Shown here: positions 2,459-24,378 of the stretch, piece after piece | Numbering within the stretch: the stretch's first letter is position 1 | Layout: each line of letters begins with the position of its first letter | DNA from: Clostridiaceae bacterium | GTDB lineage: Bacteria; Bacillota_A; Clostridia; Clostridiales; Clostridiaceae | Assembly: GCA_029256485.1 (NCBI GenBank) | Contig: JAQSXU010000044.1 | Location: 1 to 24,769 of the forward strand | Length of the DNA: 24,769 bases | Direction of reading: 5' to 3' | Notes under the pieces: model-generated | What the model was told of the DNA's origin: nothing | Databases searched by the model: none | The model's input: the letters and a program-made list of their open reading frames with translations, nothing else | Position numbers and translations under genes: made by a program

Positions 2459-2461
2459 AAA

Positions 2462-7226: not shown

Positions 7227-7243
7227 ATTGTTCTCCCCCAACA

Positions 7244-7711
7244 CTAGCAATATTTTAAAAAATCTATTCTTTTATCCGTGGGCAAAATTCTTATTTCCAA
7301 TTCAATGTTATAACTTGCTATTTTTTTCAAAGCCTTAAGTTCAACTTCATCAACATACAATGTAGTACTAATCCTCTTCTTGTCTTTTTTGTAAGACATT
7401 CCCCCTATATTTATACTTTTTACCTTTCCTCCATTTTCAATGAATTCTAAAATCTCAAATGGATTTCCAAAAACAATGATTACATTCTCATATTTGCATT
7501 CTTCTTCATACATTTCTAGGGCCTTTGAAACATTACAAAATATGATACTTATATTTTCTGGAGCAGACATTTTTATAAACGTTTTTCTTATTTCATTATT
7601 ATTTATTTCTTCATTTACAACTAATATTTCTGTAATATCTTCATAGGTACACCAATTGTTGAACAACTGCCCATGAACTAATCTATCGTCAAGTCTTACT
7701 ATTTTGAGCAA
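7244..7711 (-). CDS. PTS mannose/sorbose-family EIIB
   Basis: A cytoplasmic phosphotransfer subunit of 155 residues. The hallmark DDRLVHGQ motif near the N-terminus contains the phosphorylatable His (His13 here), which takes phosphate from EIIA and passes it to the incoming sugar. The INIGGMSY segment and the YVDEVELKALKKI region are typical of the family. Translation starts at a TTG preceded by a perfect AAGGAGG at correct spacing. The gene follows the second EIIA by 20 bases and precedes the fused EIIC-EIID. It is clearly diverged from the other EIIB of this locus (11500-11970), so this is a separate PTS and not a recent duplicate. Confidence 0.9.
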   Translation of the reverse strand: MLKIVRLDDRLVHGQLFNNWCTYEDITEILVVNEEINNNEIRKTFIKMSAPENISIIFCNVSKALEMYEEECKYENVIIVFGNPFEILEFIENGGKVKSINIGGMSYKKDKKRISTTLYVDEVELKALKKIASYNIELEIRILPTDKRIDFLKYC

Positions 7712-7731
7712 TGTAATCCTCCTTCCATGGA

Positions 7732-8151
7732 TTATGCTTTGTTTTCTTTGGTTCTATTCAAAGTTTTGTATTTTTCTCTAACATTTACTATTCCATTTTT
7801 TGCCGAGTCCTCAGCAATTTGTGAAACTCTTTTAAGTCCTTCATTTCTATGCGGAAGTATTTCTAAAAGCATTGGCATATTTATGCCAGTAATAACATTT
7901 ATATTTGGATCCTTGATCCAAAGGCTACTTGCATTATACGGAGTACCCCCAAGTAAATCCACTAATATTAAGACTTCATCTACATTCAGTTCTTTAATTT
8001 CATGTTCAATCTTACCATTTAAACTTTCTACACTTTCTGTTTTGTCAAGACAAATAGCTTTAATTTTATCCACTTTACCGTATATCATCTCAATAGAATT
8101 TATCAGCTCTTTTGCATAAACACCATGAGAGATTGCTACTATTCCAACCAT
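7732..8151 (-). CDS. PTS mannose-family EIIA
   Basis: A 139-residue EIIA-man domain protein that accepts phosphate from HPr. The active-site His9 lies in AISHGVYAKEL. The second family motif, VLILVDLLGGTPYNAS, and the GINMPMLLEIL segment are intact. There is no fused EIIB domain, unlike E. coli ManX. The ATG has GAGGTG 7 bases upstream. It sits 42 bases after the AgaS-like gene and is cotranscribed with the EIIB and EIIC-EIID genes that follow. With them it forms a complete second permease. Confidence 0.9.
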   Translation of the reverse strand: MVGIVAISHGVYAKELINSIEMIYGKVDKIKAICLDKTESVESLNGKIEHEIKELNVDEVLILVDLLGGTPYNASSLWIKDPNINVITGINMPMLLEILPHRNEGLKRVSQIAEDSAKNGIVNVREKYKTLNRTKENKA

Positions 8152-8193
8152 ACAAATACACCTCTGGATTATTATTTAATTTAGTATGAAATA

Positions 8194-9366
8194 TTACTTC
8201 CTATATATTATCACACCTTCTGCTACTTTGTTAACTAATCCAGTACTATTTATTTTATCGAGTTCACATTTTATATTAATAGCATTTAGTATAGCGAAAC
8301 TCTGCAACAATAAAGAATATTGAAAGATGGTATGTGCTTCATCCAAATATCTAAAATTGTTTTTATTAAAATAAAAATAATAATCACTGTGTTCATCTAT
8401 TTCCTTATTATAATCCATAGATATTGCTGCAATTGTACTATTTATCTTATTATTGAAGCACTCTTTTAACATATCTATTTCATATTTAATAGCGCAATTA
8501 TCATTGCTAAAGAAAAATGAAACTAATGAATTAGAGTTCATGATTAACTTAGGACCATGTCTAAATTCCAATATGGAGTGTGACTCTGTACTTTGTAGTC
8601 CAGTGGAAAGTTCACTGATCTTTAAGCACATTTCTGAGGCTAATGCATTCAATGTATTTGATCCCAGTGACACAATAGTTTCATATTTTTTATTGCTTAA
8701 AGCATGAACCTTATATATGTCTTCTTCTAAAAAGCACTTTGAATCTTCATATATGCTGTTAAACATACTAACATAATAATCGTACTTTTTTATATCAAAT
8801 ATCATCAATGCATATTGAATAAGCAAAGTAAATTCCCCAGTAGCTGCAATACTTTTACCCTTGGTTTTATCAGGGATAGGTATATATAAGGTTTTATCAT
8901 CATATCCATATTTATTAATTATTTTTCCTTCTGGAGAACAAATAATAAGAATCTGATATAATTCCCTACATCTTTCTTTGAACAACTCCACTGCCTCCAA
9001 TCCTTCAGTAGTATTTCCCGAACCACCTAGGGAAATTAGCATTACTGGTGAATCATCCAGTATATAGTTATCCGGATGTGTTATTAATGAAGTTGAAGCA
9101 ACAGCTACAACTTCTTTTTTACATATCCTTCTTATATAATTTTCTACTATTAATGCGGCTTTAGCAGAGCTTCCAGCACCAACTAAATAAATTTTTATTT
9201 TTTCTATAGCATTAATTTTTTCTATAAATAATTCTATTTTCTTTTTATTCTCTCTTATAATGTCAAGTCCCTCCATCCATAACTGGGGCTGTCTTGACAT
9301 TTCTAAAACTGTATTATATGCTTCAAGCTTTACAAGCTGTTTTTCCTCTATACCTAAGATTTTCAT
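8194..9366 (-). CDS. agaS: AgaS-like SIS-domain sugar-phosphate isomerase/deaminase
   Basis: A cytoplasmic enzyme of 390 residues, the usual length of AgaS, with two SIS folds. The first SIS domain has LVGAGSSAKAALI and the phosphosugar loop ISLGGSGNTTEGLEAVELF. The second has SLGSNTLNALASEMCLKISE, with the family-typical ESHSILEFRHGPKLI. The N-terminal SRQPQLWMEGLDII also matches AgaS. In E. coli, AgaS deaminates and isomerises galactosamine-6-phosphate to tagatose-6-phosphate. The gene lies between two PTS gene sets, one of them AgaVWEF-like, which supports amino-sugar use. A deglycase acting on a related amino-sugar conjugate (as in the gfr systems) is the main alternative. The start has AAGGAGA 7 bases upstream. 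Confidence 0.82.
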   Translation of the reverse strand: MKILGIEEKQLVKLEAYNTVLEMSRQPQLWMEGLDIIRENKKKIELFIEKINAIEKIKIYLVGAGSSAKAALIVENYIRRICKKEVVAVASTSLITHPDNYILDDSPVMLISLGGSGNTTEGLEAVELFKERCRELYQILIICSPEGKIINKYGYDDKTLYIPIPDKTKGKSIAATGEFTLLIQYALMIFDIKKYDYYVSMFNSIYEDSKCFLEEDIYKVHALSNKKYETIVSLGSNTLNALASEMCLKISELSTGLQSTESHSILEFRHGPKLIMNSNSLVSFFFSNDNCAIKYEIDMLKECFNNKINSTIAAISMDYNKEIDEHSDYYFYFNKNNFRYLDEAHTIFQYSLLLQSFAILNAINIKCELDKINSTGLVNKVAEGVIIYRK

Positions 9367-9396
9367 GTTAAGTCTCCTTTATCTAGTAAAATTTTT

Positions 9397-9446
9397 AATA
9401 ATAAAAGCAGAGCTATGTTAGTTTTAACCACTCTGCTTTTATTATT
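9397..9446 (-). terminator. hairpin between agaF-like and agaS-like genes
   Basis: A 16-bp perfect stem (AATAATAAAAGCAGAG / CTCTGCTTTTATTATT) with an 18-base loop begins 6 bases after the EIIA stop on the minus strand. On that strand the descending arm is T-rich, but A residues follow it. It could be a leaky terminator, an attenuator, or a structure that stabilises the upstream transcript end. No separate promoter was found in the 86-base gap, so read-through into agaS is likely. Confidence 0.6.
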
Positions 9447-9452
9447 TACATA

Positions 9453-9890
9453 TTATATTCCATCTTCTTCATCTAAACTATTATCCGCTTTATTAATATT
9501 TATTTTTTCAAATTTTGCAACTCCATGAATGGTTGAGTCTATAATGGAGCTGGCAAGGCTTTTTAGTGGCATTGTATCTTTTAGTAATACTGTCTCTAAA
9601 ATGGCACCTACATTACACCCAGCCACAGCTTCCATATTATCAGAATTACTGGCAAGTATTGCACATTCTTTAAAAGGAGTACCTCCAACAATGTCACATA
9701 CAAATAGAAATTGTGAATCGGTATTTCTATTTACGGCTTCCATTATTTTTTCCCTTAATGAAGTGTCATTATCTTCTTCAAGAAAATCAATAAACTCTAA
9801 CCCTTCATTATGTCCTGCTAATAATTTCAAAGAACTTTGTATTCCTGTTGCATAATTTCCATGTCCTGTTACGATCATTGTGGTTTTCAT
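9453..9890 (-). CDS. agaF: PTS EIIA, galactosamine/GalNAc type (AgaF-like)
   Basis: A 145-residue mannose-family EIIA. His10 in VTGHGNYATGI is the residue phosphorylated by HPr. FLFVCDIVGGTPFKECAIL and GCNVGAILE are the other conserved motifs. The start TGHGNYATG resembles AgaF of the E. coli GalNAc PTS. The gene starts 1 base after the EIID stop, with GGGAG 9 bases upstream. It closes the first PTS set (EIIB, EIIC, EIID, EIIA). A short acidic tail (SLDEEDGI) is unusual but harmless. Assignment as EIIA is firm; the sugar specificity is inferred from its partners. Confidence 0.87.
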   Translation of the reverse strand: MKTTMIVTGHGNYATGIQSSLKLLAGHNEGLEFIDFLEEDNDTSLREKIMEAVNRNTDSQFLFVCDIVGGTPFKECAILASNSDNMEAVAGCNVGAILETVLLKDTMPLKSLASSIIDSTIHGVAKFEKININKADNSLDEEDGI

Positions 9891-9891
9891 A

Positions 9892-10692
9892 TTATAAAAC
9901 TCCCAAGAATGATAATATTATGGCAGCAACAAATGTTATCAATATTAATGTGGTAGGGTTAATATTCTTCTTTTTTAATAAATAGAACATTGTTAATGTA
10001 TATCCCATTGGCAATATATTAGGGAATATCTTATCAACAAAATCTTTTTGTAGTGAAATTACATGACCTGCACTTACAGGTATTTGAGCAAGAAGACTAA
10101 TGTGAACATAAGATGCTATTAATCCACCTATAACAGTTATTCCCAAAACTGTAGCTGCTTTTGAGATAGCTTTTGAATTTTCTTTTAGTATAGTTATTGC
10201 TTTTACTCCAAGATTGTATCCCGAAGTTGTCCATATTATACGTGAAAGGAATACGCAAACATAAACTGCAAAGAATAATATTGGGCCTAATACATTTCCT
10301 GCAATTGCAAAGGATGAACATATACCTGCAACTATAGGCAGTAATGTAAACCAAAGTAAGGCATCTCCTATTCCAGCTAAAGGTCCGAATAATGCTACCT
10401 TTAAACCTTTTATAACGCTTCTATCTTCATGACTTTCTTCTAATGAAACCACTAATCCCATCAAAAATCCTACTAAGGTAGGGTTTGTATTAATAAATTC
10501 TAGATTATCGTGCATTGATTCTGATAATCCTTGTTTATCATCTTTATGAATTCTCTTTAAAAATGGTAACATTGCATATGTCCAGCCACCAGCCTGCATT
10601 CTTTCATAGTTAAAACTTGCTTGAAGTAGAACTGATCTAAAGGCTAATGTTCTTAAATCCTTTTTTGTCATTTTATTATTAGATTCCGTCAT
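9892..10692 (-). CDS. agaE: PTS EIID, galactosamine/GalNAc type (AgaE-like)
   Basis: The mannose-family EIID membrane subunit. It carries the characteristic LQASFNYERMQAGGWTYAMLPFLKR near the N-terminus, the ALFGPLAGIGDALLWF motif, and a C-terminal hydrophobic block ending with LLKKKNINPTTL. These align closely in order with the EIID half of the fused protein at 5607-7226. I start it at the ATG at 10692, which has GGAGG 11 bases upstream; an in-frame ATG 21 bases earlier has no site. This gives 266 residues and a 14-base overlap with the EIIC gene, a sign of coupled translation. With EIIC it forms the membrane channel. Confidence 0.87.
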   Translation of the reverse strand: MTESNNKMTKKDLRTLAFRSVLLQASFNYERMQAGGWTYAMLPFLKRIHKDDKQGLSESMHDNLEFINTNPTLVGFLMGLVVSLEESHEDRSVIKGLKVALFGPLAGIGDALLWFTLLPIVAGICSSFAIAGNVLGPILFFAVYVCVFLSRIIWTTSGYNLGVKAITILKENSKAISKAATVLGITVIGGLIASYVHISLLAQIPVSAGHVISLQKDFVDKIFPNILPMGYTLTMFYLLKKKNINPTTLILITFVAAIILSFLGVL

Positions 10693-11479
10693 TATAGTCT
10701 TCGCCTCCTTCATGGTTATTTACAGCTTTCAAAGCTTCAGCGTTGCTTTTGTCATTAAAGTATCCATACAGTGCAAATGCTGCACCAACTAAAGCTACTG
10801 GTAATAAATTTGAAAAATTTAGGAATGAAGCTATTACAAATCCTATTAGAAGGAAAGGTATATATTCTACCTTTAACATTACCCTTAGCAATAGGCCAAA
10901 TCCAACTGCTGGTAAAATTCCTCCTGCAATTTCAAATCCATGTTTTAACCATATAGGCATGCTTTCAACTAATAGTTTCATTGGAGCCTGAGCTATATAG
11001 GTACATAAGAATACTACTACTCCATATGTTATTCCAATAATTAAAGTTGTAGTTAAATTTAATTTTCCAAAAGATTCAGTATCGGCTTCATCAGCATAGC
11101 TTTCTGCCTTATGCATAAATACAGAGAATGTAGAATAATAAAATAATATAATATATTGCATTAAGAAACTAAAAGGTAGTGCAAGTCCTATTGTTGCCTT
11201 TACATCAGCTCCTGTAGTATATGCTATAACTGTTGTCATAATACCCGCTAAAATTGGATTAGGTGGTTGTGTACCTCCTACTGGTGTTAATCCTGTAAAT
11301 GCTAATTCTGTAAGTCCTCCAGCTATTAATCCAGTTCTAAGATCTCCTAGAATAAGTCCTGTTAATGTACATACTATTATTGGTCTGAAAATATAAAGTC
11401 CTTCAAGCCAAAAGTCAAAGCCAACTATAATTGCCATTACAGAAAGTAAAATACCTTGTACTAATGTAATACTATGCAT
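10679..11479 (-). CDS. agaW: PTS EIIC, galactosamine/GalNAc type (AgaW-like)
   Basis: A sugar-translocating membrane subunit of 266 residues with about eight hydrophobic segments. Family motifs are RPIIVCTLTGLILGDLRTG, LTELAFTGLTPVGGTQPPNP and VEYIPFLLIGFVIASFL. The GGTQPPNP stretch is typical of the sorbose/GalNAc EIIC group. The start ATG follows AAGGAGG by 8 bases. It is the second gene of the operon, 20 bases after EIIB and overlapping EIID. Compared with the EIIC half of the other PTS in this locus it differs strongly in the N-terminal 150 residues, so the two permeases probably take different sugars. Confidence 0.87.
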   Translation of the reverse strand: MHSITLVQGILLSVMAIIVGFDFWLEGLYIFRPIIVCTLTGLILGDLRTGLIAGGLTELAFTGLTPVGGTQPPNPILAGIMTTVIAYTTGADVKATIGLALPFSFLMQYIILFYYSTFSVFMHKAESYADEADTESFGKLNLTTTLIIGITYGVVVFLCTYIAQAPMKLLVESMPIWLKHGFEIAGGILPAVGFGLLLRVMLKVEYIPFLLIGFVIASFLNFSNLLPVALVGAAFALYGYFNDKSNAEALKAVNNHEGGEDYNDGI

Positions 11480-11499
11480 AAAAAAACCTCCTTTTTATT

Positions 11500-11970
11500 T
11501 TATTCAATCTTTGTTTTTATATCTCCAGGTGTATCTTGTGCAAATACATTAATGCCCTTTGATGAAATAAATTTTAAATCTTCCATGTCTTCATCGTTTA
11601 CATATACCTTTTTAGTTATAGATCTTTTTCCTTCTGAAAAATGCATGTTTCCAACATTTACTTCTTTCAAAGGAACGTTGCCTTCTACAAGTCTTCTAAC
11701 TCCCTTTGGTGTTTTGCATACAATAAAAATCTTTTGTTTTGGAGATGCTTTACGAATTATATCTATTGTATGTTCTATTGTAAAAAATCTTATGCCTACG
11801 CCAGATGACTCAGCAGTCATAGACATTAATTGCTGTTGAATAGGATCCTTCGCTGCATCATCATCTGCAACTATAAGTAGATTAGCACCTAAAGATGTAG
11901 TCCATGTGACACCTACTTGTCCATGAACAAGTCTGTTATCAATTCTAGTTAATAAAATATTGGGTTCCAT
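11500..11970 (-). CDS. agaV: PTS EIIB, galactosamine/GalNAc type (AgaV/AgaB-like)
   Basis: The phosphotransfer subunit that phosphorylates the sugar during uptake, 156 residues. ILLTRIDNRLVHGQVGVTWT holds the active His16. GIRFFTIEHTIDIIRKASPK, RRLVEGNVPLKEVNVGNMHF and INVFAQDTPGD match E. coli AgaV/AgaB very closely, from memory. This is the best evidence that the first PTS takes galactosamine or N-acetylgalactosamine. It is the promoter-proximal gene of the operon. An AAGGAGGAG site precedes the ATG, and a sigma-54 promoter lies about 40 bases upstream. By analogy with LevE, phospho-EIIB may also inhibit the LevR-type regulator next door when no sugar is present. Confidence 0.9.
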   Translation of the reverse strand: MEPNILLTRIDNRLVHGQVGVTWTTSLGANLLIVADDDAAKDPIQQQLMSMTAESSGVGIRFFTIEHTIDIIRKASPKQKIFIVCKTPKGVRRLVEGNVPLKEVNVGNMHFSEGKRSITKKVYVNDEDMEDLKFISSKGINVFAQDTPGDIKTKIE

Positions 11971-12008
11971 TACCTTCTCCTCCTTCTTTTATCTATATCT
12001 TTATATAA

Positions 12009-12024
12009 AGCAAAAGCTGTGCCA
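12009..12024 (-). promoter_or_regulatory. sigma-54 (-24/-12) promoter of the PTS operon
   Basis: Read on the minus strand the site is TGGCACAGCTTTTGCT. It matches the sigma-54 consensus TGGCAC-N5-TTGC, with the invariant GG and GC exactly 10 bases apart. Transcription would start near 11998, giving a leader of about 28 bases before the EIIB ATG. The adjacent upstream gene encodes a sigma-54 activator, which strengthens the call. The -24 half lies inside the inverted repeat described separately. Confidence 0.88.
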
Positions 12025-12057
12025 AGTAGTGTACACCTTTACTACTTGGCACAGCTT
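12014..12057 (-). terminator. 17-bp inverted repeat; terminator of the LevR-type gene
   Basis: The perfect arms AAGCTGTGCCAAGTAGT (12014-12030) and its complement (12041-12057) are separated by 10 bases. On the minus strand the hairpin starts within the stop codon of the regulator gene and is followed by TTGCTTTATAT, a modest T-tract. It fits a terminator that prevents read-through from the regulator into the PTS genes. The downstream arm doubles as the -24 region of the sigma-54 promoter. Confidence 0.72.
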
Positions 12058-14809
12058 ATAGCTGAAAATCATCAACTTTATTTTTTATACTGTCGTAAAT
12101 AAACCCAATTTCGGAAATTGGTATTTTCACTTTGTAAAACTGTTCTATGACACTAAATGCTTTTCTCACAAAATTTACGAAGTGTACATGACACTGTTCG
12201 AATCCTGTTATATCTTTATATGTCATAATAGGATCTTTAACAACTAGTCTCTCAACCATACAACTTATGTGAATATACAAACTAATCTTAAGATCATTTT
12301 GAAATTTAAAACCCAATTCTCTTTCAAGAATAATTAATGCCTGCTCCACTTGATCTACAATTTTATCAGGATTTAGTATAGTTAAATAATTCAACACATT
12401 TTCCAAAGTAAATAATTTAATGGTTTCCCTATTAATTTTATCTATTATTCCCTGATCTACAATACCACTTAGCGTATTTATAAGTATTTCATTACCTTTT
12501 CTCATTATTAAATTTTCCAGAGAAATATATGGAATGTCAGCAATCTTAGGATCATTTGTTCCAATAATAAGCTTTACATTATACTGTTTAAATATAAAAT
12601 CCTCCCGGCCATTATCCTTTAGCCTATCAAAATCATAAGCTAATACTTTAATTTTTTCATTTTTAAAACAGTTATTTAGAAGATCCTTTAATTTACTTGC
12701 AGTTCCTATACCTGTTATACACGTGGTTATAATTATGTCTTCTTTTCTTTTTCTTGAAGGTATAAAATTATATTTACATATATTGCTTCCTACCGTTTCC
12801 TTTGCAATCTGTTCAAGTGGCTGGCAGTTATGTATTCTGTTTCCTACATCTAGCGCCAAACGTGTGGACACATTATCTATTATTGCAATATCACCATAAA
12901 GCTCGTTTTTTAAACTTATATAAATGCTTTCTAAGGAACCCATATCCACTAATATAAGTAATCCCTTTGATGTATCAATTGTTTTTGTATAGTCTTTAAG
13001 TTTATTACTAATCTCTAATACAGAACTTTCTAGTGGCATATCAAAAGGTTCGAAAATATACCTTCCAAGCATCCTGTTTGCAACCCCAGCAATACTGCTT
13101 GCAGTTGAATATCCATGGGTAATTATTACTGCATTTATTTGATTTGAATTTGATTCCTTATGAAGAGATTTTATATAAATCAGCACATATACCACCGCAA
13201 TTTTGCTAACTTCTAAGCCTAAGTTGTTCTCTATATTTTCAATTATTCTTAAGGTTGTTTTATAATCCTTAGAATATATCTTACTTAAGTATTCAGCTGC
13301 CTCATCAAAACCTGTTATATAGCTTTCATCATATTTTTCAAGAAAATGTGTAAGAATGTATGTAAGAATTTCTGCACTATTTCCAAAATAATTGATTCCA
13401 AAATTTGAACGCATGAAAGCTAAAGTATTTTCCGTAATTTTCTCCATAGAATTAAAAATTATATTTCTTGAATCCTTATTTTTCTTGCTAAATACCATAT
13501 CATCAATTAATTCATTTAAAATAGCAGTACTTTCCATCATAAAACTCTCGCTGCTTTTTTTCTCACTTTTCAAATTTTCAATCAAGCTAACAATCTTATT
13601 TGTCAATTCCAATACTTTATTTGAATTATTGCCTTCATCATCAAAGTCATCTTTATCGGAACAGCTTAAAAACATATCGCTTACATTTATTTTATTTAGC
13701 ATTATATCATCATCTTGATTAATAAATTCCTTCGGCAGATTGTTTATTTTTACTTTAACAGGCTTTGAAGTTTTGTTAATATAACTACTTAAAGCACTGG
13801 CACAGCTTAATTTTATAGTATTAGTAAGTTTTCCTATATTTCCATAGCTGTTATTATTGATAAGAATGCTGATTACTTGACTGCTAACCAATATATCTTT
13901 ATTAATATTTACTGCTTCTTTCCTATAAAAGTTTTTAATAAGTTCCTTTCTTTCTTTTAGAGGTCTGTCTTGAAAGGTAGGTATTTTTACTATTAATGGA
14001 ATTCTCCTTAAAAAGGTTTGAAGAAATTGGTTTTCAGGATTCTCTGTTGTGGCAAAAATCATCCTTACATTTGCTTCCCTCTTCTTCTCGGCCTCTCCCA
14101 CTCTCCTAAATATACCTTTATCTAAAAATAAGAAAAGTTTTTCTTGACCTTCTGGAGGCAGCCTATGAATTTCATCAAGAAAAAGATAACCCCCATTTGC
14201 TTTTTCAATAAGACCCACTCTATCCATATCTGCGCCTGTATAAGCTCCCTTAGAAGCGCCAAACAATATAGCAGAAAAAAGTTCTGGATTATTTGCATAT
14301 TCAGCACAATTGAATATTACAAAAGGTGCATTTTCCTTTACAAAACCAGAATGCTTTGCGTAATCAAATACTAATTGAGCTATAAAGCTCTTTCCTACTC
14401 CAGATTCACCTACAAGTAAGAAAGGTAATCCATTTGGAGGATATGCAACTGCCGATTTACATTGCTGAACAACATATTTTAAGCTTCCATTTGAGCCTAC
14501 TAATTCTTTAAATAGGTATTTATCTGTATTAGAATTAAGTGGGCTGCTATCATTTAAGTATTCTGATATGAGTCTAAATTCACTCTTCCTGCTTTCATAT
14601 ACCTCTGAATCCATAAAGTATACAGGCCTTTTACTGATTTTAATAGCTTTTCCACCCTTACTCATATCATTTAACAAGTGGCTAACTAAATTCCTTTGTA
14701 ATTCCAATTTATCAGCAATGTCTGTGGCAGTTATTCCATATTCTTTTGTACCATCTATTTTCTCACAAAGCTCTTTTAATATTAAGCTAACTTTTGTTTT
14801 ATTGGTCAT
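12056..14809 (-). CDS. levR: LevR-type sigma-54 activator with PRD and PTS-like domains
   Basis: A transcription activator of 917 residues; B. subtilis LevR is similar in length. An N-terminal helix-turn-helix (about 1-65) is followed by an AAA+ ATPase: Walker A GESGVGKS near 134-141, sigma-54 contact loop GAYTGA near 188-193 (the usual form is GAFTGA), and Walker B YLFLDEIHRL near 208-217. Next come a PRD-like domain (about 425-545), an EIIA-man-like domain with ITHGYSTASS (His near 563), an EIIB-gat-like domain with TTCITGIGTA (Cys near 695), and a C-terminal PRD (about 800-915, YIHISCMVERL, His near 845). In LevR, HPr phosphorylates the EIIA-like His (activating) and the EIIB phosphorylates the last PRD (inhibiting). 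Start: GAGG 9 bases before the ATG at 14809; a farther in-frame ATG lacks a site. Confidence 0.9.
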   Translation of the reverse strand: MTNKTKVSLILKELCEKIDGTKEYGITATDIADKLELQRNLVSHLLNDMSKGGKAIKISKRPVYFMDSEVYESRKSEFRLISEYLNDSSPLNSNTDKYLFKELVGSNGSLKYVVQQCKSAVAYPPNGLPFLLVGESGVGKSFIAQLVFDYAKHSGFVKENAPFVIFNCAEYANNPELFSAILFGASKGAYTGADMDRVGLIEKANGGYLFLDEIHRLPPEGQEKLFLFLDKGIFRRVGEAEKKREANVRMIFATTENPENQFLQTFLRRIPLIVKIPTFQDRPLKERKELIKNFYRKEAVNINKDILVSSQVISILINNNSYGNIGKLTNTIKLSCASALSSYINKTSKPVKVKINNLPKEFINQDDDIMLNKINVSDMFLSCSDKDDFDDEGNNSNKVLELTNKIVSLIENLKSEKKSSESFMMESTAILNELIDDMVFSKKNKDSRNIIFNSMEKITENTLAFMRSNFGINYFGNSAEILTYILTHFLEKYDESYITGFDEAAEYLSKIYSKDYKTTLRIIENIENNLGLEVSKIAVVYVLIYIKSLHKESNSNQINAVIITHGYSTASSIAGVANRMLGRYIFEPFDMPLESSVLEISNKLKDYTKTIDTSKGLLILVDMGSLESIYISLKNELYGDIAIIDNVSTRLALDVGNRIHNCQPLEQIAKETVGSNICKYNFIPSRKRKEDIIITTCITGIGTASKLKDLLNNCFKNEKIKVLAYDFDRLKDNGREDFIFKQYNVKLIIGTNDPKIADIPYISLENLIMRKGNEILINTLSGIVDQGIIDKINRETIKLFTLENVLNYLTILNPDKIVDQVEQALIILERELGFKFQNDLKISLYIHISCMVERLVVKDPIMTYKDITGFEQCHVHFVNFVRKAFSVIEQFYKVKIPISEIGFIYDSIKNKVDDFQL
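12105..12121. promoter_or_regulatory. candidate enhancer (UAS) dyad for the LevR-type activator
   Basis: CCAATTTC-G-GAAATTGG is a perfect 8-bp dyad inside the last codons of the regulator gene. It lies roughly 107-123 bases upstream of the predicted sigma-54 start. Activators of this class bind dyads about 100 bases upstream, so position and symmetry fit. The dyad is seen; its function is inferred. Confidence 0.4.
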
Positions 14810-14878
14810 TGAGTTTATCCTCGTTTCTATACAGCAGTGCACAGCATTTATATATAATTCATTATATTTATTAATAGG

Positions 14879-14908
14879 ATTGTAACATTTTTGCAGTATT
14901 AAAATCAA
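14879..14908 (-). promoter_or_regulatory. possible sigma-A promoter of the LevR-type gene
   Basis: On the minus strand TTGATT (14903-14908) and TACAAT (14879-14884) are 18 bases apart, about 70 bases before the ATG at 14809. This is a plausible housekeeping promoter in AT-rich sequence, so chance matches are possible. Confidence 0.45.
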
Positions 14909-14956
14909 GATTAGGAAACTTTTATATTAACCGTCCCTAATTTTACTAATTTTATT

Positions 14957-14993
14957 AAGAAACCAGCCCCTGATATTATGGAGCTGGCTTCTT
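14957..14993 (-). terminator. terminator of aspA
   Basis: A stem-loop with arms AAGAAACCAGCCCC and GGAGCTGGCTTCTT (one mismatch and one G-T pair) and a 9-base loop begins about 10 bases after the aspA stop on the minus strand. It is followed by a T-containing but mixed tract. It separates aspA from the PTS regulator downstream. Confidence 0.72.
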
Positions 14994-15002
14994 AATCTTT
15001 AT

Positions 15003-16424
15003 TTATATTGCACATCTGTCTTTATCTGCGCTTAAGGATTTATCCGGCTGGGTCATTGAAATTGGATCTAATATCTGCTCCAATTCATCACGGGTTAAAA
15101 TTCCTTCCTTTAAAATTATCTTATTAACAGGTATTCCTGTTTTTAAAGCCTTCTTGGCAATTTCAGCGGATTCTTTATATCCTATGTAAGGACAAAGTGC
15201 TGTTACCATCCCCACACTGCCATTTAAAAGTTCCAAACATCTTCCTTTATTAGCAGTAATCCCAACAATACAATTGTCTACAAATGTTTTAACTGCATTT
15301 CTCAAAGTTTCAATGGATTCAAATAAATTATAGAAAAGCACTGGTTCAAAGGCATTGAGCTCCATCTGCCCAGCCTCTGCTGCCATGGTTATGGTAAAGT
15401 CATTTCCTATTATATTAAATGCAACCTGGGAAACTACCTCCGGAATAACAGGGTTTATTTTGCCTGGCATAATTGATGATCCATTTTGCTTTGATGGAAG
15501 ATTAATTTCTCCTAAACCAGTTTTAGGTCCGCTGGAAAGTAATCTTAAATCATTTGCCATTTTAGATAAATTTACTGCGCAGGTTTTTAAAATACCTGAT
15601 ACACTTACAAAGCCGTCCAGGTTTTGAGTTGCATCAATTAAATCATCTGACTGAACCACATTAAGCCCTGTAACCTTCTGAAGATTATATGTAATGCTGT
15701 TTATATATTCTGGACTTGCATTAATACAAGTGCCTATAGCCGTTGCTCCCATATTTAATGTGAGCATTTCCTTTTCAGCTTTATTTAATCTATTTATATC
15801 ACGCTTTATCACTGAAGCATATGCATGGAATGATTGTCCAAGTCTGATTGGTACTGCATCCTGAAGCTGAGTACGTCCCATTTTTATAACATTATCAAAC
15901 TCTAGGGATTTTGCCTGAAGAGCATTATATAAACGCTGAAGTTCTGAAGCTACTTTAGGCAGCATTTTTAAAATAGTAAGCTTTCCTGCAGTTGGAAACA
16001 CATCATTGGTGGATTGTGCCATGTTTACATGGTCATTTGGATGAACTATTCCGTAATCTCCCTTGTTTCCGCCTAGTAATTCAATGGCACGGTTTGCAAT
16101 AACCTCATTGGCATTCATATTTGCAGAAGTACCTGCACCCCCTTGAATAGGATCAACTATAAATTCATCATGGAATTTTCCTGAAATAATCTCATCACAG
16201 GCATAAATAATTGCATTAGCAATGGTGGAATTTAATTTCTCTATATCTCTATTTGTAATAGCTGCTGATTTTTTTATTTCAGCAAGACTTACTATAAGCT
16301 GTGGATGAATTGTTTTATTTGTAATGTGAAAGTTATTTTTTGCTCTTAGTGTTTGTACTCCATAATAAGCATCAGCTGGTACTTTCATACTTCCTATTGA
16401 ATCAGATTCTATTCTTGTATCCAT
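15003..16424 (-). CDS. aspA: aspartate ammonia-lyase (aspartase)
   Basis: A cytoplasmic enzyme that reversibly splits L-aspartate into fumarate and ammonia; 473 residues, as expected. The fumarase/aspartase superfamily signature GSSIMPGKINPV (about 313-324) supplies the catalytic Ser loop. MGRTQLQDAVPIRLGQ, AQSTNDVFPTAGKL and GGAGTSANMNANEV form the other active-site regions. The later EAGQMELNAFEPV and the tail LTRDELEQILDP favour aspartase over class II fumarase. The start at 16424 has GGGGGA 6 bases upstream; an earlier in-frame ATG does not. It is transcribed divergently from an Lrp/AsnC-type regulator that may sense amino acids and control it. In anaerobes it feeds fumarate reduction or releases nitrogen from aspartate. 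Confidence 0.93.
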   Translation of the reverse strand: MDTRIESDSIGSMKVPADAYYGVQTLRAKNNFHITNKTIHPQLIVSLAEIKKSAAITNRDIEKLNSTIANAIIYACDEIISGKFHDEFIVDPIQGGAGTSANMNANEVIANRAIELLGGNKGDYGIVHPNDHVNMAQSTNDVFPTAGKLTILKMLPKVASELQRLYNALQAKSLEFDNVIKMGRTQLQDAVPIRLGQSFHAYASVIKRDINRLNKAEKEMLTLNMGATAIGTCINASPEYINSITYNLQKVTGLNVVQSDDLIDATQNLDGFVSVSGILKTCAVNLSKMANDLRLLSSGPKTGLGEINLPSKQNGSSIMPGKINPVIPEVVSQVAFNIIGNDFTITMAAEAGQMELNAFEPVLFYNLFESIETLRNAVKTFVDNCIVGITANKGRCLELLNGSVGMVTALCPYIGYKESAEIAKKALKTGIPVNKIILKEGILTRDELEQILDPISMTQPDKSLSADKDRCAI

Positions 16425-17330: not shown

Positions 17331-17510
17331 TTACTTTACCAGCAATTGAGTGACCAGCTGTTTAATGCTGTTATTGCAGTTACCGCAGCTAGTACCAACT
17401 TTAGTAACTTCCTGTACCTCTTCAAATGATTTAGCTCCGTTTTCAATTGCTTTCTTTATATCTGACACGGTAACCTTGAAACATTCACATACTACTGTAG
17501 CATTATCCAC
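17331..17510 (-). CDS. small [2Fe-2S]-binding protein, BFD domain
   Basis: A small protein of about 59 residues formed almost entirely of a BFD-like domain (bacterioferritin-associated ferredoxin family). Four Cys ligands are in the family pattern: VCECFKVT near the N-terminus and TSCGNCNNSIKQL near the end (C-x-C ... C-x2-C). The helix between them (VSDIKKAIENGAKSFEEVQ) is also typical. I chose the GTG at 17510 because GGAGG precedes it by 8 bases; an in-frame ATG at 17531 would add 7 residues but has no site. Such proteins shuttle electrons or regulate cluster or iron release. It lies downstream of a haem/flavin reductase on the same strand, possibly a functional partner. Confidence 0.82.
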   Translation of the reverse strand: MDNATVVCECFKVTVSDIKKAIENGAKSFEEVQEVTKVGTSCGNCNNSIKQLVTQLLVK

Positions 17511-17647
17511 TTTCCTAACCTCCATAATCATTTATTAATAAATTTTCTGAACATTATTTAGTTTCACCATTTATATCTTAACTATGTATCCTTCAATAAT
17601 TATGGTTTATAGGTAAATGAATATGCTTTGCTTATATAAATTTTAAT

Positions 17648-18916
17648 CTATTTAAATTGAAAGTGTTCAAAATGAAATTGTCCAACCTTTAAGCTGCTGC
17701 TTTCAAATTGTTTTCTCAAACTTTCTCTCATGGGCCTTGGCCCGCAGAAATAAACATCCGTAGTATCCTCAAATTTTGCATATTTGCAAATTTCATTTAC
17801 TGTTAAACGTCCCTGTTCTTTTGTGTTTATCAAATGTAATTTAAAGTTTTCATCATTTGCCAGTTCCTTAAGTTCATCCACATAAGCTGCTTCTTTTTCA
17901 TTTTTATAAGAATAAAAGAAATCTATATTGTAATCTTTTGATATTACAGACTGTAAAAAACTCCTAAATGGGGTTACTCCAATTCCTCCAGCAATCCATA
18001 TTTGATTTTTGGTGCCTGTTTCATAGTTGAACTTTCCATGAGGCCCTGCCGCTGCAAATTCGTCACCAATTTTCAATGTATTAAATATAGCCCTTGTGTC
18101 ATCTCCCAATGCCTTAATGGTAAATTGTATTTCACCATGTTTTGGAGCCTCACTTATGGTAAATGGATGTGATGGTAATTTATTATCCTTACCTGCTGTT
18201 TTTATAAATGCAAACTGCCCAGGCTTAAATTTCATACTTTTCCCTAAGGCACTTCCTGTGATTTCTAGGGTATCATCAGCTACCACCTGTAAATTTTTAA
18301 TTTTAAAGTGATATTTAAAAGCAGTTTTTTCATATAAGAATATGCTGTAAACAGCCGATGCCACTCCTAATATATTTAAAAAATCCATCCACATTGCATA
18401 AGCGCTTACTGAAAAAACAGCATAATTTGCACTTCCATAGTAATGATAAATGCCCATTGCATATGGAATAGGCATAAACTTATGAATTGATTTCCATCTT
18501 TCATAATTTAATTTTTTTGCTAAAATAGCAATTGATATAAGGACTACAAATAAATACAAGCTGAAGCTTCCATACATGGCATATGGATCTCTAGGTATGC
18601 GAATACCCTCTCTAAATTCAATTCTTCTTGCCATGCCAATTGTTATATTGTGAATTACCACCAAAAGCAGTGCTGATATGCTTAAGTATTTATGATAAAT
18701 ATATGACTTGTCTAGTCCATCAAATAAATAATCTAAAAGCCTGTGTCTGGTAGATATAAAATTTATCATGGCAAAAGCAGCCATAGCAAATGAAGCCAGT
18801 AATTGTGAATATTGACTCATCATAGGTATATTCCTTGTAGGCTTCATAAGCAGCCAGAATAACCCAGTAACTAACATACTAAATGAAATAAATAAAATAC
18901 CTGTTTTTTTTCTCAT
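17648..18916 (-). CDS. ferric reductase-like haem membrane flavoprotein
   Basis: A predicted membrane oxidoreductase of 422 residues. The N-terminal half has about six membrane helices with two His pairs, His75/His89 and His145/His158, at the 13-14 spacing of the ferric reductase/NADPH-oxidase haem b domain. The C-terminal half is a ferredoxin-NADP reductase module: FAD motif HPFTIS (about 250-255), NAD(P) motif GGIGVTPFRSF (about 310-320) and YFCGPRPM near the end. It should move electrons from NAD(P)H through FAD and haem across the membrane, for example to iron. The ATG at 18916 has GGAGAG 7 bases upstream. It follows the CDP-alcohol phosphatidyltransferase gene by 30 bases, in one operon. 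The electron acceptor is unknown. Confidence 0.85.
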   Translation of the reverse strand: MRKKTGILFISFSMLVTGLFWLLMKPTRNIPMMSQYSQLLASFAMAAFAMINFISTRHRLLDYLFDGLDKSYIYHKYLSISALLLVVIHNITIGMARRIEFREGIRIPRDPYAMYGSFSLYLFVVLISIAILAKKLNYERWKSIHKFMPIPYAMGIYHYYGSANYAVFSVSAYAMWMDFLNILGVASAVYSIFLYEKTAFKYHFKIKNLQVVADDTLEITGSALGKSMKFKPGQFAFIKTAGKDNKLPSHPFTISEAPKHGEIQFTIKALGDDTRAIFNTLKIGDEFAAAGPHGKFNYETGTKNQIWIAGGIGVTPFRSFLQSVISKDYNIDFFYSYKNEKEAAYVDELKELANDENFKLHLINTKEQGRLTVNEICKYAKFEDTTDVYFCGPRPMRESLRKQFESSSLKVGQFHFEHFQFK

Positions 18917-18946
18917 TGTACAACTCTCCTTCAATGTATACTGCAA

Positions 18947-20742: not shown

Positions 20743-21378
20743 TTATCTTATAAAATTCATAAATATCTTTTCTTCTCTTTCATTTTCTTCTATATGTCCT
20801 TTTCCAAAATCCACAAGCTTCATTAACCAGGTCATATTTTTACCTAAAACTCTCATAATCTGCATACCTTCTGTATCTTTTTCTGCTTCCCCCGGTTCTG
20901 TTCCATAAACTACATTCCAGTAATTTGATGTAGGCATCACCATTTCTGAATAATTAATATAGTTATTCAGTTGATCAAATACCGGCACACCGCCGGATCT
21001 TCTATCTGCAACCACGCTGGCTCCAACTTTATGTCTAAGCATTCCATTGTTTACTGATGTTACAAGAAATGCACGATCTAAAAATGACTTCATTGTTCCT
21101 GCTATAGCTGAATAGTGCACTGGAGAACCTAAAATAATTCCATCAGCTTCTTTCATCTTTTGAATCCACTCATTTACCTGGTCATTTTCAATAACACATC
21201 TTTCATTCATATTTCTGCTGCACCCTCCACAGGCTAAACATCCACGAATGACCTTATTTCCTACATGAATAATTTCTACATCTATATTGCTTTTTTCTAA
21301 TTCCTCTGCTACAGCTTTTATTGCCTTATAGGTATTACCATTCTTTTTAGGACTTCCATTAAAAGCAACTACTTTCAT
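20743..21378 (-). CDS. iron-sulfur flavoprotein / NADPH-dependent FMN reductase family
   Basis: A cytoplasmic flavodoxin-fold redox protein of 211 residues. The N-terminal FMN phosphate loop is NGSPKKNGNTYKA. A compact cysteine cluster, GCLACGGCSRNMNERC (about 46-61), gives C-x2-C-x2-C-x7-C, the [4Fe-4S] motif of Isf-type proteins. GSPVHYSAIAGTMKSFLDR is the second flavin loop. These proteins of anaerobes pass electrons from ferredoxin or NADPH to oxidants such as O2, peroxide or quinones. The ATG has GGAGG 8 bases upstream. The gene is divergent from an HxlR-type regulator and has a promoter overlapped by dyads, so induction by redox or electrophile stress is likely. Confidence 0.88.
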   Translation of the reverse strand: MKVVAFNGSPKKNGNTYKAIKAVAEELEKSNIDVEIIHVGNKVIRGCLACGGCSRNMNERCVIENDQVNEWIQKMKEADGIILGSPVHYSAIAGTMKSFLDRAFLVTSVNNGMLRHKVGASVVADRRSGGVPVFDQLNNYINYSEMVMPTSNYWNVVYGTEPGEAEKDTEGMQIMRVLGKNMTWLMKLVDFGKGHIEENEREEKIFMNFIR

Positions 21379-21610: not shown

Positions 21611-21949
21611 ATGATAGATTGTAATGGTAAAAAATATGTATGCTTTTTAGATTTTGCAATGGATTTAATTAGAGGTAAATGGAAAGCAGTTTTATTGTGC
21701 CACTTATATGAAGAACCCAAAAGATTTTTAGAACTTCAGCGAATAACAAATGGAATCAGCCAAAAAGTATTAAATGAAAAACTTAAGGAATTAGAAAATG
21801 ATGGACTAATAGATAAGGTAATTTATGCTGAAATTCCACCTAAAGTAGAATATTATCTTACTAATAAGGGCAAAGATCTTACTGAGATCATAAAAGAACT
21901 TGAAAATTGGTCTATTAAGTATTATTCTAACTTAAATTCTAATGTTTAA
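21611..21949 (+). CDS. HxlR family transcriptional regulator
   Basis: A 112-residue winged helix-turn-helix protein. The family pattern is clear: DFAMDLIRGKWKAVLLCHLY (helix 1 and the conserved GKWK), RFLELQRITNGISQKVLNEK (recognition helix) and LKELENDGLIDKVIYAEIPP (wing), ending in YYLTNKGKDL. HxlR/YodB-type members often sense electrophiles or redox state through a Cys near the N-terminus; here Cys4 and Cys11 precede the domain. It is divergent from an iron-sulfur flavoprotein gene and probably represses that gene and itself. An upstream GGCAGG provides the ribosome site. Confidence 0.9.
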   Translation: MIDCNGKKYVCFLDFAMDLIRGKWKAVLLCHLYEEPKRFLELQRITNGISQKVLNEKLKELENDGLIDKVIYAEIPPKVEYYLTNKGKDLTEIIKELENWSIKYYSNLNSNV

Positions 21950-21992
21950 AAAACAATAACTCATATGAATATCATATGAGTTATTGTTTTTT
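21948..21992. terminator. bidirectional terminator between hxlR-type gene and cooS
   Basis: A 21-bp perfect stem with a 3-base loop (ATA) lies between the convergent genes. T-runs follow the stem on both strands. It begins two bases before the end of the HxlR stop codon and reaches the cooS stop codon, so it serves both genes. Confidence 0.88.
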
Positions 21993-23905
21993 TAGCTTAG
22001 TCCCATTGCTTTTCTTTTACTTAATATATGAGCTTCAATGTTGTTAGCTACTTCTACTGGATTATCACCTAAAGCCACTTTACCTCCTGTAAGTTTTTCC
22101 ACATCCTCTGTAAGAAGCTTTACAAGCTGGCTGGCACCTGTTAAAAATGGAGTTGGGGATAAATGTGTGTAAGCTCCATATGCAACAGCAAACATACCAT
22201 CTATTGTTGCCTTCTGTTCCATCCACTCAGGGGCAGTTACTGCAATTGGAAGGTCAGGGATATCCACATCAAGATGATTGGCAAGTTCAGTAACAAGCAT
22301 GGATATTCTTCCTGTATCAGTACAGGTTCCAAAGCTTAAAACCGGAGGAATCTTCAGCATATTGCAAACCTCTTTAAGACCTGCACCTGCCATATTTACT
22401 GCGTCTAAATTACAAAGTCCTGCTACTTCCAGTGCATGGTTGCCGCAGCCCCCCGCAACAACTAAAATATCCTTTTTAATTAATTCCTTTACCAGATTTA
22501 CTGTGTTCCAGTCCTGAGGTCCATTTCTCAATGTGGAGCAATTTGCCAGAGCCACTACTCCCTTAATTTTCCCCGCTGCAATTACATCTACCAGTGGATC
22601 TAATTTATTTCCCAGTGCTTTTAAAACAGCCTCTGTAGAAAATCCAGCTATTGCCTTTTGTATTATTTGAGGAACTTTTGGTACAATCTTACCCTTTCTC
22701 TTTTTGAAATTTTCAATGGCTAAGTCTATTAATGTGTCAGCGGTCTCATTCACCTTTACAGGATCGTATGGGAACATATGATTAAGCCCCGGCAATCCGA
22801 TTATTGTACTTACTCCCACCAGTGTGACCTGATACTTTTCAGCATACTGATCTATTGCAGGAGGTGAGCAGTTTTCCTCCATTGCCAGAACATCCACTGT
22901 TCCTGTAGCTAAAAGAGGTTCTATGGTTAGCCAGTTTCCCATAAGCCCTACAAATACATCATCAATTTGAAATCTTTGCAGCAGCTCCTGACCTGTTTCA
23001 ATGGAACCAACTATTCTAAGTCCCTTGGCACCAGCTGCTTTTGCTCTTTCCTGTACTTCTGGCGTCTTTGCCTTTTGCAGAGTAGCGACTCCAGGCCATG
23101 GCTGATGTCCATTAAATACAATATTTATATAGTTGGGATCCATTATTCCTAAATCCACATTTACTTCATGAGGAGTTGGAGTTCCAAATAATATATCCTG
23201 TGTCATTTCTAGTCCTATCTGAGCTGTATAAATTGTAGATAATCCTAGTGATAATCCCTTCTTTGCCAGAGACGCATAATCTCCATCCACGTTGGTTAAG
23301 CAGCTTGCTACTGCATTTTGTTCTTCATGAACTACTCCTGAAGGATAAATTCCAATGTTCTTCCACACCTGTTTTCTCTTCCTTGGTGCAAATACATCTA
23401 CCATAACACTTGGCTCATCTACATCTTTTCCCATTTCTGCTTCTAAAAAATTGGCTAAATCCACAGCCATCTTATTTATGTCCTTATTTGTATTAATTCC
23501 AACTTTGCCGCACATCCATTTAAGCTTTTCAGTATCTTTTATTGTAAATGGAGTTTTTCCCTGCCCTGTTGCCCTCAATGTTCTAAATGCCTCATATGCG
23601 TGATGACTGTATGTACCTGCTCCCATAATGTTTCGTAGCAGCATATTTCTCATTGCCATAGCATCAGGACCTATGCCGCATACTCCCTTTTGCTGTTCTC
23701 CTTTAAGATTAATTCTGCAGGGACCTTGAGAACACAGCTGGCAGCTTAGTCCTTCCAAGCAGAATTTACATCTTATTTTTTCCTGTGATGCATACCTGTC
23801 AAAAACATTAGACATCCCATCTTCTCTTATTCTTTTAAGCATTTCTTCAACAGAGTCATGATAGCTGACCCGGACTTCTGTTTTTTCTAATATAGTTTCA
23901 TTCAT
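21992..23905 (-). CDS. cooS: CooS-family protein with altered active site (CooS-V-like)
   Basis: A cytoplasmic Fe-S protein of 637 residues, the length of anaerobic CO dehydrogenase catalytic subunits. B-cluster ligands are present at Cys55, Cys58, Cys63 and Cys76. The D-cluster motif is Cys46-x2-Cys49, with Ser54 at the place of a normal Cys. For the C-cluster (C. hydrogenoformans CooS-II numbering), His261, Cys333, Cys446, Cys476 and Cys526 match His267, Cys346, Cys456, Cys487 and Cys528, and Lys563 matches Lys565. But the usual GxCCTGNE reads GSIETGQE, so Cys295 is Glu303. The CooS-V enzyme lacks a canonical active-site Cys, carries an Fe/S/O hybrid cluster and does not oxidise CO. No cooF, cooC or acs gene is adjacent. 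AGGAGGTGG precedes the ATG. Family certain; activity probably not CO oxidation. Confidence 0.9.
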   Translation of the reverse strand: MNETILEKTEVRVSYHDSVEEMLKRIREDGMSNVFDRYASQEKIRCKFCLEGLSCQLCSQGPCRINLKGEQQKGVCGIGPDAMAMRNMLLRNIMGAGTYSHHAYEAFRTLRATGQGKTPFTIKDTEKLKWMCGKVGINTNKDINKMAVDLANFLEAEMGKDVDEPSVMVDVFAPRKRKQVWKNIGIYPSGVVHEEQNAVASCLTNVDGDYASLAKKGLSLGLSTIYTAQIGLEMTQDILFGTPTPHEVNVDLGIMDPNYINIVFNGHQPWPGVATLQKAKTPEVQERAKAAGAKGLRIVGSIETGQELLQRFQIDDVFVGLMGNWLTIEPLLATGTVDVLAMEENCSPPAIDQYAEKYQVTLVGVSTIIGLPGLNHMFPYDPVKVNETADTLIDLAIENFKKRKGKIVPKVPQIIQKAIAGFSTEAVLKALGNKLDPLVDVIAAGKIKGVVALANCSTLRNGPQDWNTVNLVKELIKKDILVVAGGCGNHALEVAGLCNLDAVNMAGAGLKEVCNMLKIPPVLSFGTCTDTGRISMLVTELANHLDVDIPDLPIAVTAPEWMEQKATIDGMFAVAYGAYTHLSPTPFLTGASQLVKLLTEDVEKLTGGKVALGDNPVEVANNIEAHILSKRKAMGLS

Positions 23906-24004
23906 TTAATCCACCTCCTGTAAAATGTACTCTTTGTTAGTTTATCTTTTATAAATATATATATACATATATTCTTTACAGCAGTTAAAGCCATAATTAT
24001 TCTA

Positions 24005-24044
24005 AAAGAGCACAATGATTATTTTTATAAACATTGTGCTCTTT
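24005..24044 (-). terminator. hairpin downstream of the nitroreductase remnant
   Basis: A 13-bp perfect stem (AAAGAGCACAATG / CATTGTGCTCTTT) with a 14-base loop lies 23 bases after the remnant's stop and 100 bases upstream of the cooS start. The arm ends in TTTT on the minus strand, with a moderate T-rich tail. No clear promoter for cooS was found between it and the cooS start. Confidence 0.7.
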
Positions 24045-24067
24045 CTATTCATTTTATTTACTTTTGC

Positions 24068-24378
24068 TTAACCTTCCAACTTTTCATAGTGTATTCTTTT
24101 TTCATCAAATCTATCTATAAATTTATTTTCCTGTCCATCTGGGTATCCCAGTGCAATTACACAAAATGGTTTTAAGTTTTCCTTTAAATTAAACATTTTC
24201 TTTATATAATCTACTCTTTCTTTAATTGGTGCCGCTCCAAGCCATACTGCACCAAGATCTAACTCAACAGCTTCAAGCAAAATATTTTCAGCTGCTGCTT
24301 TCCTGCAGATAGAGCCTGCATTGCAGCTCTATGAAGCTTTTCTATTGGTTTTCCTCATATTTTCTTATACTTCTTCTG
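24068..24378 (-). pseudogene. nitroreductase family, decayed and interrupted
   Basis: A remnant of an FMN-dependent nitroreductase. Read on the minus strand, the piece next to the mobile element encodes RRSIRKYEEN, then a +1 shift gives PIEKLHRAAMQALSAGKQQ; both belong to the N-terminal flavin-binding part (typical form RRSIRKYEEKP...RAAMQAPSAGNQQPW). The sequence then jumps to another frame encoding AAENILLEAVELDLGAVWLG and the normal C-terminus ending DRFDEKRIHYEKLEG. So one A is missing from a short A run, and the middle of the gene is deleted, with the join at a GCAGCAG repeat near 24292-24298. An in-frame TAG at 24329-24331 closes the C-terminal frame. The very N-terminus is cut off by the mobile element. 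It cannot make a working enzyme. Confidence 0.8.

Follow-up and report, generated by a model that had tools for sequence, protein, structure and literature searches.

To our knowledge, only one member of the CooS-V family of carbon monoxide dehydrogenase (CODH) homologues has been purified. The passages of Jeoung 2022 drawn on here (PMC9311411) describe this protein, CooS-V of Carboxydothermus hydrogenoformans, as carrying a [4Fe-3S-nO] (Fe/S/O) hybrid cluster without Ni and a [2Fe-2S] D-cluster. Neither oxidation of CO nor reduction of CO2 or NO was detected, and hydroxylamine was turned over with a kcat of 0.13 per s. The active site opens only on reduction, which was taken to suggest a reductase. 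The exchange of Cys295 for Glu is the mark of the CooS-V subclade, and CODH-II carrying the C295E substitution is Ni-deficient and does not oxidize CO (PMC9311411).

Corresponding residues define structural group D-1 of the Ni-CODHs, a group called HCP-like by convergence in the part of Inoue 2019 used here (PMC6344411), i.e., similar to the hybrid cluster protein (HCP). The same source associates D-1 genes with a COG1063 dehydrogenase and with HypA and HypB, which are Ni-related factors, and it cites genetic data from M. acetivorans that suggest a possible role of D-1 in CO oxidation. In the passages available from PMC13056359, a close operon neighbor is lacking for 64% of clade D genes, the role of the clade is said to lack experimental proof, redox sensing is discussed, and co-occurrence with HCP is suggested as a clue.

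A clade D or D-1 isoform of C. autoethanogenum is mentioned in PMC13056359 and PMC6344411, in passages that give no gene name. The orphan gene cooS2 of this species is not required on CO or on H2-CO2, according to the sections consulted of Liew 2016 (PMC4895105), with which those of PMC9004356 are consistent. Loss of cooS2 did not significantly affect growth on CO but lowered the final density, and an acsA mutant that retained cooS1 and cooS2 failed to oxidize CO but gave off some of this gas, a result interpreted by the authors of the study as possible CO2 reduction by cooS1 or cooS2 (PMC4895105). By elimination, we take cooS2 to be the D-1 copy of C. autoethanogenum, because cooS1 adjoins ferredoxin and oxidoreductase genes as in clade C.

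The predicted protein and its cluster residues

The window, i.e., the whole 24,769-nucleotide stretch of Clostridiaceae DNA that we analyzed, contains an intact open reading frame of 637 residues on the minus strand (positions 21992 to 23905), with an ATG start. A Pfam scan assigned the protein to the Prismane/CO dehydrogenase family (493.7 bits). The NCBIfam model TIGR01702, a CO dehydrogenase equivalog named "anaerobic carbon-monoxide dehydrogenase catalytic subunit," gave 890.3 bits against a cut-off of 478. A phmmer search of PDB sequences returned 7b7q as the top match (882 bits, E value of 1.4e-264), with 7b7t, 7b95, 7b97, and 7b9a ranking beside it, and the second-best solved CODH reached 413 bits only. 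The data statement of PMC9311411 identifies all five entries as CooS-V of C. hydrogenoformans. Identity to CooS-V (7b7q) was 62%, or 389 of 624 aligned residues.

The kinship with the deviant CooS-V proposed in the first-pass annotation is thus borne out by the identity, the gap between 882 and 413 bits, and identical first-sphere residues. Its warning that an automatic "CO dehydrogenase" label would mislead was equally apt, given that TIGR01702 accepts the protein far above its cut-off despite CooS-V type residues. Judged by its sequence, the window protein is of an already published kind, the CooS-V type or Ni-CODH structural group D-1, for which a hybrid cluster would be expected. An AlphaFold model had a mean pLDDT of 65.8, with segments 1 to 97 and 557 to 595 below 50; its top Foldseek match was again CooS-V, at 62% identity but with an rmsd of 11.5. 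We set the model geometry aside on account of this mean pLDDT and rmsd.

Twenty cluster and active-site positions were compared in the alignment with 7b7q, and 19 were identical; the only difference was His101, which corresponds to Tyr93 of CooS-V. Glu303 (codon at 22997 to 22999; this and the following features lie on the minus strand) occupies the position of Cys295 of the C-cluster and matches Glu295 of CooS-V, and the adjacent Ile302 matches Ile294; the codon was placed by alignments to CooS-V, relatives, and paralogues. The other C-cluster ligands and the catalytic Lys are kept, as had been stated. They are His267 (codon at 23105 to 23107; CooS-V His259), Cys346, Cys456, Cys487, and Cys528 (within 22322 to 22870; Cys338, Cys449, Cys480, and Cys521), and Lys565 (Lys558). 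His102 and Asn345 match His94 and Asn337. No alignment that we made puts a Cys at position 303, so the substitution read from the sequence at first pass, with its Ile neighbor, was confirmed.

The D-cluster motif comprises Cys46 and Cys49 (CooS-V Cys38 and Cys41) and Ser54 (Ser46), at 23744 to 23770, and is followed by the B-cluster Cys residues 55, 58, 63, and 76 (23678 to 23743; CooS-V Cys47, Cys50, Cys55, and Cys68), which bind a [4Fe-4S] cluster in CooS-V. These features were also placed by alignment. The first-pass annotation had singled out the C-x2-C pair with a Ser as an alteration; the pair and the Ser are present but are no oddity of this gene. With Ser54 preceding Cys55, Cys46, Cys49, and Cys55 form the C-x2-C-x5-C pattern of the type III D-cluster, a class defined in PMC6344411, and the type III or [2Fe-2S] motif is already described in the parts of PMC6344411 and PMC9311411 used here.

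Two further features had escaped the first reading. Tyr99 (codon at 23609 to 23611; CooS-V Tyr91) stands at the position of the acid-base His, and Glu563 (CooS-V Glu556, HCP Glu494; 22211 to 22219 together with Lys565) precedes the Lys by two residues, an arrangement shared with HCP according to the correspondence given in PMC6344411. The protein therefore combines Glu for the first C-cluster Cys, a type III D-cluster, and the Tyr, Lys, and preceding Glu of group D-1, and no departure from the group definition was found among the residues compared. A competent Ni,Fe-CODH has a His and five Cys as C-cluster ligands and an acid-base His (His93 of CODH-II); here Glu303 replaces one of the Cys, and Tyr99 replaces the His.

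The HCP ligand set of one His, two Glu, and four Cys is complete in His267, Glu303, Glu563, and Cys346, Cys456, Cys487, and Cys528, and the resemblance to the Glu ligand of HCP remarked on earlier is real; the correspondence is that of PMC6344411 and PMC9311411, our own alignment being gapped around position 303 in the HCP rows. Together with a weak match to the HCP model TIGR01703 (52.9 bits), this ligand set could suggest that the protein is a true HCP (hydroxylamine reductase family) with no more than a likeness to CooS. This identity is hardly credible, and we regard it as refuted by sequence. The TIGR01703 score is far under the cut-off of 360.8, a branch of length 3.27 set three HCPs apart in one of our trees, and the protein has the length and the D-cluster motif of a CODH. 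In addition, each of the 46 genomes surveyed that carry the enzyme encodes a separate HCP scoring over the cut-off.

A second alternative is a working Ni,Fe-CODH in which Glu303 serves as the exo-iron ligand and CO/CO2 interconversion is kept. It would account for the retention of Lys565 and of the other C-cluster ligands and for the TIGR01702 score, and it could draw on the M. acetivorans genetics (PMC6344411) and on the CO release by the C. autoethanogenum acsA mutant with cooS1 and cooS2 (PMC4895105). We consider it unlikely enough to deserve little weight. CooS-V, with the same residues, has neither Ni nor CO activity, and CODH-II C295E loses both (PMC9311411); Tyr99 takes the place of the acid-base His; and the C. 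autoethanogenum cooS2 mutant was not significantly affected on CO save for its lower final density (PMC4895105). As the first-pass annotation had stated, the gene also has no cooF, cooC, or acs nearby, since a Pfam scan of 27 ORFs in the window detected none of these domains.

Relatives, paralogues, and trees

We compared the window protein with the best 80 of 220 confirmed genomic loci and with 119 database proteins among the matches listed (120 of 3,836 including the window's own protein). The diagnostic residues, His101 included, were invariant in 80/80 of these loci and in 119/119 of these proteins, except that position 54 was either Ser or Thr. A chance substitution is excluded, because Glu303 was found in every one of these best 80 of 220 loci and 119 proteins among the matches listed; as these are the nearest relatives, the counts show a trait fixed in the subfamily and do not measure the breadth of the subfamily. 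One further relative (L168) has its D-1 gene split into two adjoining pieces, covering query residues 1 to 183 and 174 to 633, and appears to hold a decaying copy.

In an alignment with CODH paralogues, the window protein and 7/7 D-1 relatives had Glu in the 303 column, and all 20 paralogues hand-picked from the relatives' genomes had Cys, within motifs such as GICCTGN, GMCCTGN, and GCTCVGQ. Six of the 20, with the motif GCTCVGQ, share Tyr99 and Glu563 but have Gln at 565; in four others, which carry GICCSGL, the next Cys is replaced by Asp or Glu. Six D-2-like proteins (L162 to L167) were also examined. All six combine a type III D-cluster with Glu563, Asn345, and Lys565, yet have Cys at 303 (GHVCEGQ) and Asn at position 99, the acid-base His position; they are 37 to 38% identical to the window protein and have a longer N terminus, in open frames of 714 to 732 codons. 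In the table of Inoue, too, D-2 combines a type III D-cluster with Cys (PMC6344411). The altered D-cluster and the additional Glu therefore also occur without the Cys-to-Glu change, because the D-2-like proteins have the first two but keep the Cys.

The D-1 rows, including the window protein, formed one clade of 8/31 rows (support 99/97), and of 8/37 rows (96/98) in a second tree to which the D-2-like rows were added. The trees were built without CooS-V itself, so the kinship of the window protein with CooS-V rests on the phmmer match and the alignment. When rooted with HCP, the trees placed D-1 at the base, the other CODHs being grouped with support of 93/90; with the D-2-like rows the corresponding values were 82/53, and in both cases the program warned that long branches meet. 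For this reason, we made no use of these trees to argue that D-1 is ancestral to Cys-type CODHs. In print, the Glu at the 295 position is treated as derived in the passages seen of PMC9311411 and PMC6344411, and CODH-V is proposed as the earliest form in those of PMC10502027.

Genomic setting and distribution

Downstream of the gene lie a convergent HxlR regulator (21611 to 21949) and then an FMN reductase (20743 to 21378). Upstream are a 70-codon C-terminal piece of a nitroreductase (24068 to 24280, minus strand) and, at the contig end, a TnpB/Cas12f-like fragment (PF07282; 24490 to 24768, minus strand). A 21-pair hairpin separates the convergent HxlR gene from the CooS-V type gene (21948 to 21992; -24.4 / -26.5 kcal/mol, z about -10), and another lies upstream, between the gene and the nitroreductase piece (24004 to 24045; -21.5 / -19.9 kcal/mol, z about -7.7). 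A G+C-based pattern scan listed neither, and both appear terminator-like by inference. Because they flank the gene on both sides, the transcript probably contains this gene only. No Rfam family matched the window at gathering thresholds.

The first-pass annotation had placed the gene next to redox-stress-type genes. The FMN reductase and HxlR genes do adjoin it in the window but are not conserved in relatives: a tblastn search (E 1e-8) of the fetched flanks of the best 80 of 220 loci, many of them shorter than the full flank, found HxlR near the gene in 0/80 loci and the FMN reductase in 2/80, about 3 and 7 kb away. The neighbors are different in L161, the nearest genome found (94% identical). 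Upstream, an apparently intact 170-codon nitroreductase frame occupies the place of the window's piece, and downstream is an FtsX/ABC/TetR set (L161 positions 12112 to 15743), whose homologue lies 16 kb off in the window (1814 to 5403). The different position of this set (FtsX permease, ABC ATPase, and TetR) suggests that the intervening region was rearranged or inserted. In light of these differences, the redox-stress neighborhood was rejected as functional evidence.

The window contains other gene sets. A gene that joins a ferric-reductase-like membrane domain to a flavin/NAD reductase module (17648 to 18946, minus strand) lies directly downstream of a same-strand CDP-alcohol phosphatidyltransferase and is followed by a BFD-like [2Fe-2S] protein (17331 to 17531). 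Two mannose/sorbose-type PTS gene sets and an SIS-domain protein (5607 to 14908, minus strand) stand beside a sigma-54 activator with a PRD domain, which is DagR-like (NF047795, 551.8 bits, under the cut-off of 1400); they perhaps form an operon for uptake of amino sugars or glycation products.

No conserved partner gene was found among 930 neighboring ORFs clustered from the best 80 of 220 loci. The largest neighbor family, read by eye as response regulators, occurred in 27/80 loci at scattered positions. Upstream regions of the window gene and of 79 loci were scanned with site strings for Rex, HcpR/CRP, FNR, PerR, Fur, NsrR, CooA, and CymR, and these 80 regions showed no noteworthy enrichment relative to mononucleotide shuffles. 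The strongest signal was HcpR/CRP-like, in 4/80 regions against 1.3 expected; CooA-like sites numbered 10 against 8.5.

For the distribution of the enzyme, we surveyed the 46 of 80 loci with isolate-like genome titles, leaving out 34 that were mostly metagenome bins. All 46 genomes carry the CooS-V type enzyme, and 29/46 encode a second protein over the TIGR01702 cut-off; in another (G045) the second copy is interrupted and scores under it. Sixteen genomes (G003, G005, G006, G011, G014, G016, G018, G020, G024, G025, G034, G039, G041, G042, G044, and G046) had no other TIGR01702 match beyond hits of at most 45 bits, which were weak fragments or HCP-like, a count that rests on mostly draft genomes of related species, of completeness not given, and on one model cut-off. 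They include Fonticella tunisiensis, Clostridium tetanomorphum, C. thermopalmarium, C. sardiniense, two Lutispora, and Metaclostridioides mangenotii. In one of them (G003), a C-terminal fragment of 56 residues that contains stops (37 bits) may be the remnant of a lost gene. Acetyl-CoA synthase (PF03598) was found in 20/46 genomes and in 0/16 of those with D-1 as the sole CODH.

A printed remark holds that D-1 type genes occur only beside other CODHs. The 16/46 sole-CODH genomes run against it, which is a modest new point; we saw no earlier report of D-1 as a sole CODH in the literature searched, although this does not prove its absence from print. A homologue with 75 to 94% identity was present in 54/194 genomes of the family to which C. 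ragsdalei (L001) belongs, 53 of them nearly full length and one split, as tallied by identity, with residue 303 read in part of them. Distribution is patchy, with the D-1 enzyme in 4/13 genomes of the genus of L001. Co-occurrence with HCP, the clue suggested in PMC13056359, was dropped: HCP over the cut-off accompanied the enzyme in 46/46 genomes but was also present in 190/194 genomes of the family regardless of it.

Predicted function and known counterparts

The gene very probably encodes a CooS-V type (D-1) enzyme that would carry a hybrid cluster, would not oxidize CO, and would act as a reductase outside CO metabolism. Sequence identity, the residue set, the clade, the unconserved context, and the relatives without other CODHs were computed; the cluster structure and activity of CooS-V come from papers, and the like behavior and the physiological role of the window protein are inferred. 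In particular, its presumed lack of CO activity is extrapolated from CooS-V across 62% identity.

By analogy with CooS-V, the enzyme would be a homodimer. Its active site would hold an Fe/S/O hybrid cluster instead of a Ni,Fe C-cluster because Glu303 occupies the Cys295 position and, going by the CooS-V structure, Glu563 would be a further carboxylate ligand. An external low-potential donor would reduce the intersubunit [2Fe-2S] D-cluster (Cys46 and Cys49 of both subunits), and electrons would pass through the [4Fe-4S] B-cluster to the hybrid cluster, which on reduction would take an open [4Fe-3S] form. In the oxidized state, Fe3 would be bound by Cys456 and Glu303 (Cys449 and Glu295 in CooS-V), with Glu563 (Glu556) nearby, and a persulfide on Cys528 (Cys521) would shut the channel. 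In the reduced state, Fe4 would be bound by His267, Glu303, and Cys528 (His259, Glu295, and Cys521), the persulfide sulfur would enter the cluster, and the channel would open. A small oxidized substrate might then bind and be reduced, hydroxylamine being a slow surrogate.

Slow turnover by CooS-V and the redox-dependent opening of its site (PMC9311411), as well as the mention of redox sensing by clade D (PMC13056359), could also fit a regulator or redox sensor whose reversible cluster rearrangement signals the redox state to a partner. Such a role is very unlikely, as the electron-transfer Cys are fully retained, the substrate channel of CooS-V opens on reduction, and no neighbor gene is conserved in the best 80 of 220 loci, although an unlinked partner could still exist. 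The gene is most likely a single-gene unit with a function outside CO metabolism, encoding a low-potential reductase distinct from HCP. A physiological "N-oxide reductase" activity is a weak proposal, because CooS-V showed no detectable NO reduction and poor hydroxylamine turnover. Whether D-1 proteins at large are independent low-potential reductases or sensors rather than auxiliaries of CO metabolism, and the only CODH-fold proteins beside HCP in many clostridia, is a generalization that we put forward tentatively, at slightly less than even chances.

A curated model thus confidently names the protein after a chemistry that is absent from its best-studied relative. Surveys of CO users based on the TIGR01702 label would overcount, as 16/46 isolate genomes are CODH positive on the D-1 gene alone, and species with D-1 as the sole CODH offer the clearest background for studying the function of the enzyme. 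Beyond the known kind, what is left is modest: frequent occurrence as the sole CODH in these clostridia, and the annotation warning.

Among described systems, HCP shares the active-site ligand set and, by inference, an Fe/S/O cluster with the window protein but is a separate family, under whose cut-off the protein falls far. Group D-1 is matched throughout, in the type III D-cluster, the ligand row H E C C C C, the Tyr at the acid-base His position, the Lys, and the extra Glu. The C. autoethanogenum cooS2 is also an orphan gene, in a host that has acsA and cooS1 as well; the copy in C. ragsdalei, which we take to be a close relative of C. autoethanogenum, is 90% identical to the window protein. 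The window protein is 62% identical to CooS-V over 624 residues and has counterparts of its Glu295, Glu556, His259, and cluster Cys, the [2Fe-2S] D-cluster motif, and even the annotation as a CODH. CooS-V has Tyr93 where the window protein has His101, and its host is a thermophile that grows on CO, whereas the host of the window protein is, judging by its best hits, a Clostridium-like bacterium.
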